Assembly (NCBI RefSeq): GCF_006385135.1
Contig: NZ_CP041025.1
Location: 961,501 to 1,025,500, forward strand
DNA: 64,000 nt
Origin: Paremcibacter congregatus
GTDB taxonomy: Bacteria > Pseudomonadota > Alphaproteobacteria > Sphingomonadales > Emcibacteraceae
Direction: 5' to 3'
Under the pieces are notes generated by a model. That model worked only from the letters and a program-made list of their open reading frames with translations. It was not told the DNA's origin and searched no databases. Positions 40,957-58,910 of this stretch are shown one piece after another. The translations under genes and the position numbers were made by a program. Every line of letters starts with the position of its first letter. The first letter of the stretch is position 1.

Positions 40957-40983
40957 GGGGCGTTAAGATATTGTTAACGCCCC
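40957..40983. promoter_or_regulatory. CtrA-type box within a perfect inverted repeat, mraZ upstream region
   Basis: TTAA (40963-40966), GATATTG (7 nt), TTAA (40974-40977) then C: an exact TTAA-N7-TTAAC, the CtrA full-site consensus. The half-sites are part of a perfect 10-nt inverted repeat, GGGGCGTTAA / TTAACGCCCC. It lies 133-148 nt before the mraZ ATG. CtrA control is inferred from the motif. Confidence 0.6.
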
Positions 40984-55578: not shown

Positions 55579-56874
55579 ATGCGAGAGCAGACCATTGCAG
55601 CATTAGATATCGGAACCAGCAAGGTTTGTTGCTTTATCGCCCGGGTGAGCGTCGATGGCGCGGTCACGGGGGAAAACGTGGATGAGATCAGTCGTCCGCG
55701 GGTGATCGGCATTGGTCACCAGATATCCAAGGGCCTGAAAGCGGGCACTATTGTTGATATGGAAGAAACGGAAACGTCTATTCGGGCGGCGGTGGATGCG
55801 GCCGAACGCATGGCGGGCGGCAGCCCGATCCACGATGTTTATGTGAATATTTCTGCCGGACAGCCGTCTTCCCGGGTCTTCTCGGTTGAAGTGGATGTGG
55901 CGGGTCACGAGATCAGCCAGTTGGATATCGACCGGGTGCTGGCGGCGGGGCAGGAAAACCTAAAGGAAGAAGAACGCTTCCTGCTGCATTCCCGCCCGAT
56001 AAATTTCAGCATTGATGGCGTGCCGGGGGCGAAAAAACCGCTTGGCATGTATGGCGAAAAACTCGGCGTGGAAATTCATATGTCGACTGTGGCGATCAGC
56101 CCGTTGAAGAACATTCAGACCTGCCTCAACCGATGCCATCTGAACTTGCAGGGGGTGGTCTTGACGCCCTATGCCTCGGCATTGTCGGCGCTGGTGCCGG
56201 ATGAACGGGACCTGGGGTCGATCTGTGTCGACATGGGCGGAGGGATCACCAGTATCGCGGCTTTTCGGGATAATGAATTTGTCTTTGGGGATATTCTGCC
56301 GGTGGGGGGCAATCACGTGACCCGTGATATCGCCCAGGGGCTGTCGGTGCCGGAAGCCAAAGCCGAACGTCTGAAAATCCTCTATGGGGATTGTCTGGTT
56401 GAACGGGTGCCGGTGCGGGAACAGATTGATATTGTGCAGACTGGCGAGGATGGCCGGGACCATGCCATGACCATTCCGCGGTCCATGCTGACGTCCATCG
56501 TTAATCCACGCATTGAAGAAATACTTGAACTGGTGCGGGACCGGATTGTTGAATGCGGCCTGGCGGACAGTGTCGGCCGGCGGATTGTTTTCACTGGCGG
56601 GGCGAGCCAGATTTCCGGACTTGAGGAATTGGCGCGCAAGATATTCTCTGCCGATGTTTCACCGGAACTGCGCGGGGATTTCCATGTCAGGATGGGGCGG
56701 CCGATCAGCATCGACGGGTTGGCGGACGCGACGGCGGGGCCTGTATTTTCGACCTGCGCGGGTTTGCTGAATTATGGCGCAGCCTTGCCGGGGGAAGTCC
56801 ATTACCGTAATGCGGAAAAACCAAAACCGGGATTTCTAACCCGGGCGCAAAGTTGGTTGAAAGCCAATTTTTAG
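55579..56874 (+). CDS. ftsA: Cell division protein FtsA
   Basis: 431-residue actin-like ATPase that tethers FtsZ to the membrane. Motifs: IAALDIGTSKVCCFIARV at the start, DVYVNISAGQPSSRVFSVEV, ICVDMGGGITSIAAF, GDILPVGGNHVTRDIAQGLS and VFTGGASQISGLEELARK. The end (GFLTRAQSWLKANF) forms the amphipathic membrane-targeting helix. It is followed by a 195-nt gap dense with regulatory motifs before ftsZ. Confidence 0.96.
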   Translation: MREQTIAALDIGTSKVCCFIARVSVDGAVTGENVDEISRPRVIGIGHQISKGLKAGTIVDMEETETSIRAAVDAAERMAGGSPIHDVYVNISAGQPSSRVFSVEVDVAGHEISQLDIDRVLAAGQENLKEEERFLLHSRPINFSIDGVPGAKKPLGMYGEKLGVEIHMSTVAISPLKNIQTCLNRCHLNLQGVVLTPYASALSALVPDERDLGSICVDMGGGITSIAAFRDNEFVFGDILPVGGNHVTRDIAQGLSVPEAKAERLKILYGDCLVERVPVREQIDIVQTGEDGRDHAMTIPRSMLTSIVNPRIEEILELVRDRIVECGLADSVGRRIVFTGGASQISGLEELARKIFSADVSPELRGDFHVRMGRPISIDGLADATAGPVFSTCAGLLNYGAALPGEVHYRNAEKPKPGFLTRAQSWLKANF

Positions 56875-56913
56875 AAGAAACCGGGCGGGGCTAGGGTGAT
56901 TTTTTGGGAAAAA

Positions 56914-57037
56914 GAGTCAAAAAAGGCCAAAAAACGACTCGAAAGACGAAAAAAACGACTCGGGACGCAGTTTTTCTAGACAGCGCGAATCACTTGAGTT
57001 AAATTATAGTTAACTATTTGTTAAGCCACATTGAATC
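56914..57037. promoter_or_regulatory. Cluster of five GANTC (CcrM methylation) sites upstream of ftsZ
   Basis: GANTC occurs at 56914-56918 (GAGTC), 56936-56940 (GACTC), 56957-56961 (GACTC), 56987-56991 (GAATC) and 57033-57037 (GAATC). The first three start 22 and 21 nt apart, about two helical turns, and two of them lie in a 13-nt direct repeat (56929-56941 and 56950-56962). A random 256 nt would hold about one. In Caulobacter, CcrM methylation of such sites controls ftsZ transcription; the same role here is inference. Confidence 0.6.
56999..57024. promoter_or_regulatory. Triple CtrA half-site array upstream of ftsZ
   Basis: TTAA at 56999-57002, 57010-57013 and 57021-57024, each separated by exactly 7 nt, giving two overlapping TTAA-N7-TTAA sites 46-71 nt before the ftsZ ATG. 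CtrA binds this spacing as a dimer and represses or activates ftsZ in Caulobacter. The identification rests on the motif and location. Confidence 0.62.
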
Positions 57038-57069
57038 GTAAATGAGCAACAGGGCAACCGGAGCGCACC

Positions 57070-58836
57070 ATGACCATAGAATTTACAACGACAGAATTAA
57101 CCGAACTGACACCTAAGATTACGGTGTTTGGCGTCGGGGGTGCAGGCGGTAATGCCGTCAACAACATGATTGAAACCGGACTCGAGGGTGTCGATTTCGT
57201 CGTTGCCAATACCGATGCTCAGGCGCTGGCCTATTCCAAGGCGGAACAGAAGGTGCAATTGGGCGCGTCATTGACCCAGGGGCTGGGCGCGGGGGCCCGT
57301 CCGGAAGTTGGACGCGCTGCTGCGGAAGAAACCATCGATTTGATCCGTGAACATTTGCGCGGGTGTCACATGACCTTTATCACGGCCGGCATGGGGGGCG
57401 GAACCGGAACCGGGGCTGCGCCGATCATCGCTCAGACGGCGCGGGAAGAAGGTATTCTGACGGTCGGTGTGGTGACCAAACCGTTCCAGTTCGAAGGCAA
57501 TCGCCGCATGTTGCTCGCGGATCAGGGTATTCAGGAATTGTCACAATATGTCGATACGCTGATCATTATTCCCAATCAGAACCTGTTCCGGATCGCCAAT
57601 GAGCGCACGACTTTCGCCGATGCCTTCTCCATGGCCGACGAAGTACTGCATTCCGGGGTGCGCGGGATTACCGATCTGATGGTGCTGCCGGGCCTGGTAA
57701 ATCTTGATTTTGCTGATGTACGTACCGTGATGAGCGAAATGGGCAAGGCCATGATGGGGACAGGTGAGGCCGAAGGCGAAAACCGGGCCCTGGAAGCTGC
57801 TGAAGCCGCCATATCCAATCCATTGCTGGATGAAGTTTCCATGAAAGGCGCCAACGGGGTGTTGATCAATATTACTGGGGGTATGGATCTGACCTTGTTT
57901 GAGGTTGATGAGGCGGCCAACCGTATCCGTAGCGAAGTCAACGCGGAAGCAAATATTCTGGTCGGGTCCGCCCTGAACCCGGATCTTGACGGTAAAATGC
58001 GGGTATCAGTTGTGGCGACTGGCATGGATTCAGATGGTCAGCCGCGTCGGGAAGAGCCGAAAAAAACATACAGTTTTGAAACGAAACCTGAGCCTGCCAA
58101 ACCAGCCGCAGACCCGACGCCGACAGGTGGATGGGATGAGCCTGTGGCCGCGCGCAAGAGCCTGGTCGAGAATGTTATGGCAGCGCCCGCTGCGCCGGAA
58201 GAGGCACGGGAAGAGGAGCCGCTTGAGCTGGTTAATGAAGCCCCGGTAGTAGAGGCGCCGATCGTAGAGGCACCTGTCGTAGCGGTGGCTGAGGAAAAAG
58301 GTCGGGATCAGGTGCGTCAGGAAACTGAAAGCCTGTTGGCGCAATTGGCCGACGGGATCGTGCAAAAACAAGCTGATGAGGCGCCCGAGCCTGCAGCGGA
58401 CGCAGGTTTGAGTGCGGAACGGGAAGAGCCCTTCATCGCAGCAGCGCCGGTCATGCCGAAGAAACGCATGGTCCCGCTGGAGGACGCCGCTGACCCGTTT
58501 GCCGAGGCGGCTATGGCCAATCCGGTGGTGGAAAAGACAACCGAGAAGCGCGGTTTTATGGGTATGTTCGGCAGCCGCCGCAAGACGGCTCCGAAGAAGC
58601 AGGCCATTTCCCGTCAGGCGGATTTGCTGGCCCCTGAGCCAGAGGCGCCCCGGAGTGAGCCAAGCTTGCGGCCCAACCCGTTAAAAGCGACGGCCCAGGC
58701 CCCGGTAGAACCGCAACAGCCAGCCACGACGCCGGTGGTTGAACCTGCAGTCGAAGCAGACACACCGTCCGGCCAAAAAAGCCAGGACGAAAACCATCTG
58801 GAAATTCCGGCGTTTTTGCGACGTCAGGCCAACTAG
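57070..58836 (+). CDS. ftsZ: Cell division protein FtsZ
   Basis: 588-residue tubulin-like GTPase forming the Z-ring. The globular domain covers residues about 15-320: [17 protein letters not shown], the GTP motif [13 protein letters not shown] (about 105-117), [18 protein letters not shown] and the T7 loop region [19 protein letters not shown] long proline-, glutamate- and alanine-rich linker of about 250 residues follows, as in alphaproteobacteria. The C-terminal conserved peptide [11 protein letters not shown] binds FtsA and other partners. It has its own regulatory region (GANTC and CtrA-type sites) after ftsA, so it can be transcribed apart from the rest of the cluster. Confidence 0.97.
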
Positions 58837-58891: not shown

Positions 58892-58910
58892 TTAAGCGCC
58901 CATTAACCAT
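58892..58910. promoter_or_regulatory. CtrA-type box downstream of ftsZ
   Basis: TTAA (58892-58895), GCGCCCA, then TTAACCAT (58903-58910). The spacing is exact and the second half matches the extended CtrA half-site TTAACCAT. Its place between converging genes is unusual, which suggests an unannotated transcript. Binding is inferred. Confidence 0.5.

Follow-up and report, generated by a model that had tools for sequence, protein, structure and literature searches.

A family-conserved GANTC array upstream of ftsZ in Paremcibacter congregatus, a candidate methylation-controlled promoter on predicted bent DNA

The window analysed here is a 64,000-nt stretch of the Paremcibacter congregatus chromosome (NZ_CP041025.1, positions 961,501 to 1,025,500) that includes ftsA and ftsZ. 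The genome consists of a single contig of 4.19 Mb, and its nearest named relatives are Emcibacter MAGs. The gap between the two genes carries an array of GANTC motifs together with predicted promoter elements, as listed below in window coordinates; signed positions are relative to the predicted ftsZ start site.

55579-56874: ftsA ORF (NCBIfam TIGR01174)
56875-57069, plus strand: ftsA-ftsZ intergenic region, 195 bp, bounded by the two ORFs and carrying the GANTC array
56900-56975: phased A/T-tracts (T6 at 56900, A5 at 56909, A6 at 56919, A6 at 56929, A7 at 56949, T5 at 56971), predicted intrinsic bend
56914-56918: S0, GAGTC at about -98; lineage-specific, with a GANTC at equal distance from the ATG in four relatives and none in most
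56929-56941, plus strand: box 1, AAAAAACGACTCG, with GANTC at 56936 (about -76) and YGAKTCG on the minus strand
56950-56962, plus strand: box 2, AAAAAACGACTCG, with GANTC at 56957 (about -55) and YGAKTCG on the minus strand
56977-56982, plus strand: predicted -35, TAGACA; AGACA invariant in 23 of 23 genomes
56987-56991: S3, GAATC within the -35/-10 spacer (predicted -25 to -21); invariant in 23 of 23 genomes
57000-57005, plus strand: predicted -10, TAAATT, after a 17-nt spacer; bases 57000, 57001 and 57005 (TA and the final T) invariant
56999-57014 and 57010-57025: two overlapping CtrA-type TTAA-N7-TTAA sites, covering the -10 and the predicted start site
57033-57037: S4, GAATC in the predicted 5' leader (about +22); invariant in 23 of 23 genomes
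57060-57063, plus strand: GGAG, ftsZ ribosome-binding site, assigned from the sequence
57070-58836, plus strand: ftsZ (NCBIfam TIGR00065, score above cut-off), the gene proposed to be regulated

A sequence scan placed GANTC starts at 56914, 56936, 56957, 56987 and 57033, bearing out the five sites in 124 bp that the first-pass annotation had reported for this gap. The 13-nt direct repeat it had noticed around two of them was also recovered, the copies lying 21 nt apart. The background sample comprised 864 kb of the same chromosome, namely 800 kb of stretches plus the 64-kb window, or about a fifth of the genome. It contained 1249 GANTC (1.45 per kb), and the window alone contained 80, compared with 267 in shuffles. 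The chance rate of one site per 256 bp assumed in the first-pass annotation was too generous for a genome this poor in GANTC, and five sites in 124 bp are therefore rarer than was supposed. At the observed density, the probability of at least five sites is 1.1e-6 per 124-bp interval, and 864 kb should contain 0.04 clusters of this kind by chance; they were observed at two loci only, ftsZ and ccrM. The control motif CTNAG, of similar rarity (1.47 per kb), reached a maximum of 4 in 124 bp in the same 864 kb. Among 321 called gaps, at least five GANTC were present in three, the 195-bp ftsA-ftsZ gap and two longer ones (576 and 2869 bp), so the motif is not equally common in unrelated gaps; equal frequency there was one of the results that, by the first-pass annotation, would have undone its proposal. 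Overall, GANTC was 1.3 times denser outside than inside crude gene calls (1.80 versus 1.40 per kb), matching a known trend (PMC3973325). The combination of CGACTCG followed by GANTC within 34 nt occurs three times genome-wide, twice in the ftsA-ftsZ gap.

FtsA was found in 100 genomes across the order, and the region upstream of ftsZ was read in 22 relatives from five genera of one family (23 genomes including P. congregatus) and in 25 genomes outside that family but within the order. Within the family, four of the five GANTC sites (boxes 1 and 2, S3 and S4) hold a fixed register, and close relatives have thus kept the sites, as the first-pass annotation required. S3 and S4 are the most constrained, with GANTC in all 23 genomes, followed by box 2 (22 of 23) and box 1 (21 of 23, the GANTC being missing in two relatives). 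The distance from box 1 to box 2 is exactly 21 nt wherever both occur, while box 2 to S3 spans 30-31 nt and S3 to S4 spans 45-47 nt. The helical phasing of three sites proposed earlier holds in part: the two CGACTCG boxes are old, and the outermost GAGTC is specific to a lineage. The register is kept across the five genera, yet FtsA outside the genus is only 58-69% identical to that of P. congregatus.

The central base of the motif varies in box 1 (C, T or A) while GA and TC remain constant, and an extra GANTC specific to one genus (g4) shows the same behaviour (T, C or G). This pattern argues for selection on the methylation site. Mean GANTC content was 4.6 per 175 bp of ftsZ upstream region, against 0.26 for CTNAG. 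Conservation also extends beyond GANTC, with the A5 before box 2, the T4 after it and AGACAG all invariant. The pattern AGACAGNGNGAATC, which spans S3, was present in 22 of 22 near-complete family genomes, mostly as a single copy. The GANTC cluster before ftsZ is real and conserved family-wide.

None of the 25 genomes from outside the family showed the array register, and most of their ftsZ upstream regions contain 0 or 1 GANTC. A scan of genome contigs found the array in two Emcibacter MAGs, and two further matches were unrelated loci. A DNA search across the class with the 113-bp core returned no full-length match beyond the genome itself, only short weak matches. The paired-box pattern was also run across the class; it matched 33 of 385 genomes, for the most part at unrelated loci and about as often as a reversed control did, so the pattern alone is uninformative outside the family.

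TAGACA/TAAATT is the sole sigma-70-like match in the ftsA-ftsZ gap, with weak hexamers (9 of 12 bases), and the position of the -10 predicts an ftsZ start site near 57012. CTAGAC was considered as the -10 of a second promoter and dropped because its conserved bases fit better as a -35 (TAGACA/AAGACA). S3 (56987) lies in the 17-nt spacer in the context GCGAATCAC, so that, relative to the predicted promoter, a GANTC occupies the spacer as in CcrM/GcrA-activated promoters. The extended GcrA motif is YGAKTCG/K (PMC7987155), and the form YGAKTCG has three matches here, all on the minus strand: TGATTCG at S3 and CGAGTCG in both boxes. The candidate CtrA sites at 56999 and 57010 provide the CtrA boxes of a Caulobacter-type ftsZ promoter, and 8 of 12 listed relatives from the family have at least one full CtrA-type site. 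No intrinsic terminator of ftsA was found in the A/T-rich repeats of the gap.

The A/T-tracts upstream of the -35 have centres at about 56902, 56911, 56921, 56931, 56952 and 56973, recurring every one or two helical turns or so, with the CGACTCG boxes located between A-tracts. Two methods were used to predict bending, a dinucleotide wedge model and a simple score of AA/TT/AT phasing, and the ftsZ upstream locus ranked top in the 864 kb by both. In the wedge model, the predicted bend among relatives ranges from about 69 to 178 degrees, and strong bending is therefore not universal in the family.

The genes that the first-pass annotation had suggested looking for, ccrM and gcrA, are both encoded in the genome, identified by profile and structure matches, along with ctrA. 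CcrM aligns end to end with the solved CcrMI structure 6pbd (E 4e-155) and matches NCBIfam NF050803 (4.8e-188) with 624 bits, under the equivalog cut-off of 830. GcrA contains the DNA-binding and sigma-binding parts (matches 7ye1, 5yiu and 5yix) and scores 129 bits, under the NCBIfam equivalog cut-off of 280. These low scores are perhaps caused by narrow NCBIfam models. Across the order, GcrA was found in 98 of 100 genomes and the CcrM RAMA domain in 94 of 100. CtrA is 74% identical to a Caulobacter CtrA query, and its identity is independently backed by an NCBIfam CtrA model score above cut-off. GC skew suggests an origin near the contig ends and a terminus near 1.9 Mb, which would place ftsZ (1.02 Mb) roughly halfway along a replication arm and ccrM (1.73 Mb) close to the terminus.

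DnaA boxes are known in the Caulobacter ftsZ promoter, and CtrA repression of ftsZ is known for Caulobacter as well. CcrM activation of ftsZ, the precedent cited in the first-pass annotation, is published: CcrM-dependent activation in Caulobacter requires a CGACTC located between the -35 and -10 of ftsZ and close to the start of mipZ (PMC3708114). The P. congregatus promoter shares with that of Caulobacter crescentus a GANTC in the spacer, the CGACTC motif, CcrM in the genome and CtrA regulation of ftsZ, the last represented here by candidate sites (PMC3708114). The Caulobacter promoter has one conserved motif, whereas four GANTC are conserved here, and two CGACTCG lie upstream of the -35 (about -55 and -76) on phased A-tracts. 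The spacer word also differs, being CGACTC in Caulobacter and GCGAATC, within GCGAATCAC, in P. congregatus, which lacks CGACTC in the spacer; with CGACTCG upstream and GCGAATC in the spacer, the two promoters are not base-for-base alike. P. congregatus has a CGACTC upstream of mipZ, on the reverse strand, but the GANTC sites upstream of mipZ were not kept among 25 relatives, so the mipZ part of the Caulobacter ftsZ/mipZ co-regulation is not conserved here.

In Caulobacter, a spacer GANTC marks start sites activated at 40-60 min, and a GANTC outside the spacer has the opposite association (PMC4287350). Relative to the predicted promoter, the P. congregatus ftsZ gene has the spacer GANTC of that timing class. 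More than one GANTC was reported at 11 of 96 Caulobacter start sites, counted over 50 bp upstream only (PMC4287350), and the array described here reaches about -98, beyond that span. GcrA acts via sigma region 2 to stimulate formation of the open complex at methylated promoters (PMC7403470). According to PMC7987155, ftsZ is a predicted GcrA target in some alphaproteobacterial orders; the regulon prediction scored extended YGAKTCK matches with Emcibacter congregatus among the genomes scored. GcrA binding is not always activating, and Brevundimonas showed no preference for the extended motif (PMC7987155). Because an Emcibacter genome was part of that prediction, proposing ftsZ as a GcrA target in this group is not in itself novel. 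The available text of that paper describes no array, spacing or DNA bend, and a search of the papers available found none linking GcrA with curved DNA. In the literature consulted, neither the array nor its fixed register nor the bend appears to have been described.

The second cluster lies upstream of ccrM (contig about 1735158-1735410), with 8 GANTC in 250 bp, 6 of them within 124 bp, partly inside the end of an upstream RNase-HII-like gene. Relatives hold a ccrM array in similar register around TTGAC(G/C)-N-GATTC, and this conservation suggests self-control of ccrM. No GANTC was found within 250 bp upstream of ctrA (2501843) or gcrA (1444203); the Caulobacter ctrA P1 promoter differs in having one. 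Taken together, the ftsZ and ccrM arrays suggest that in the Emcibacteraceae the main targets of the module are ftsZ and the module's own methylase, with mipZ, gcrA and ctrA having no conserved nearby sites or none at all.

With the regulators present, GANTC enriched and the sites conserved, a methylation-dependent ftsZ promoter read by GcrA, as the first-pass annotation proposed, is the best reading; the emphasis shifts from the phasing of three sites to S3 in the promoter spacer, the likeliest of the sites to act as the switch. We are reasonably confident that the predicted elements form the main ftsZ promoter, under the CcrM-GcrA methylation module and CtrA. Promoter activity, methylation, binding and timing are predicted here from sequence, conservation and the presence of the regulators. 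Sigma-70 RNA polymerase would use the weak -35 and -10, and sigma-70-bound GcrA would read the methylated GAATC in the spacer (TGATTCG on the minus strand) and promote open-complex formation. Replication would leave S3 hemimethylated and late CcrM activity would restore full methylation, so that ftsZ output would track the cell cycle. At other times, CtrA would repress ftsZ from its sites across the -10 and transcription start. The CGACTCG boxes, two helical turns apart between bending A-tracts, probably act as extra methylated GcrA sites and as an UP-like platform.

On this best reading, the ftsZ promoter would work like that of Caulobacter with a different layout, as a GcrA/CcrM-activated and CtrA-repressed promoter elaborated in the Emcibacteraceae. 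In short, DNA methylation probably switches ftsZ, as it does in Caulobacter, here with a promoter that is more elaborate and set on predicted bent DNA. The methylation control of ftsZ known from Caulobacter would thereby extend to another group with a family-fixed layout. Being compact, this natural promoter would also allow the contribution of a spacer GANTC to be told apart from that of upstream GANTC on bent DNA.

A stronger form of this explanation, overlapping with it, is a two-layer device, in which S3 switches the promoter and the bent upstream array separately holds several GcrA or delays full methylation, giving a sharper switch. The 21-nt spacing fixed in every genome with both boxes fits such a device, as does a predicted bend that is the strongest in the sampled genome; the variation of that bend among relatives and the loss of the box 1 GANTC from two of them do not, and we regard it as rather unlikely. 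Equally tentative is the proposal that the array is a separate methylation reader, with two or three m6A sites two turns apart on the most bent DNA of the region, where several GcrA or slow remethylation would yield a sharp multi-site ftsZ response, and that it forms with the ccrM array a paired feedback particular to the Emcibacteraceae.

Somewhat less probable still is that the boxes are sites of another regulator, or that the A-tracts contact the RNA-polymerase alpha subunit, with methylation incidental. The invariant bases beyond GANTC would suit this alternative, and the in-phase A-tracts look like UP elements, but GA and TC are kept while the central base varies in box 1 and the genus-specific extra site, GANTC far exceeds CTNAG in these regions, and the motif is scarce elsewhere in the genome. 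Chance clustering preserved by short divergence is highly improbable: over a whole genome the cluster statistics alone are only moderately extreme, which speaks for it, but the register held across five genera with divergent FtsA already refutes it.

Several other loci carry related features. Upstream of ctrA, the DNA is highly A/T-rich, and its predicted bend ranks among the strongest in the sample. Four GANTC occur in 47 bp beside TTAA-N7-TTAA at contig positions of about 417515-417561, upstream of a sensor-kinase-like gene, which is a further candidate for joint control by CcrM and CtrA on the basis of these motifs. Within the window, a CtrA-type TTAA-N7-TTAA at 40963-40978 lies about 150 bp upstream of an mraZ-like gene (41111), the first of the division and cell-wall gene cluster. 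The gap between ftsZ and the convergent gene that follows contains another TTAA-N7-TTAA, at 58892-58907, just past the end of ftsZ.
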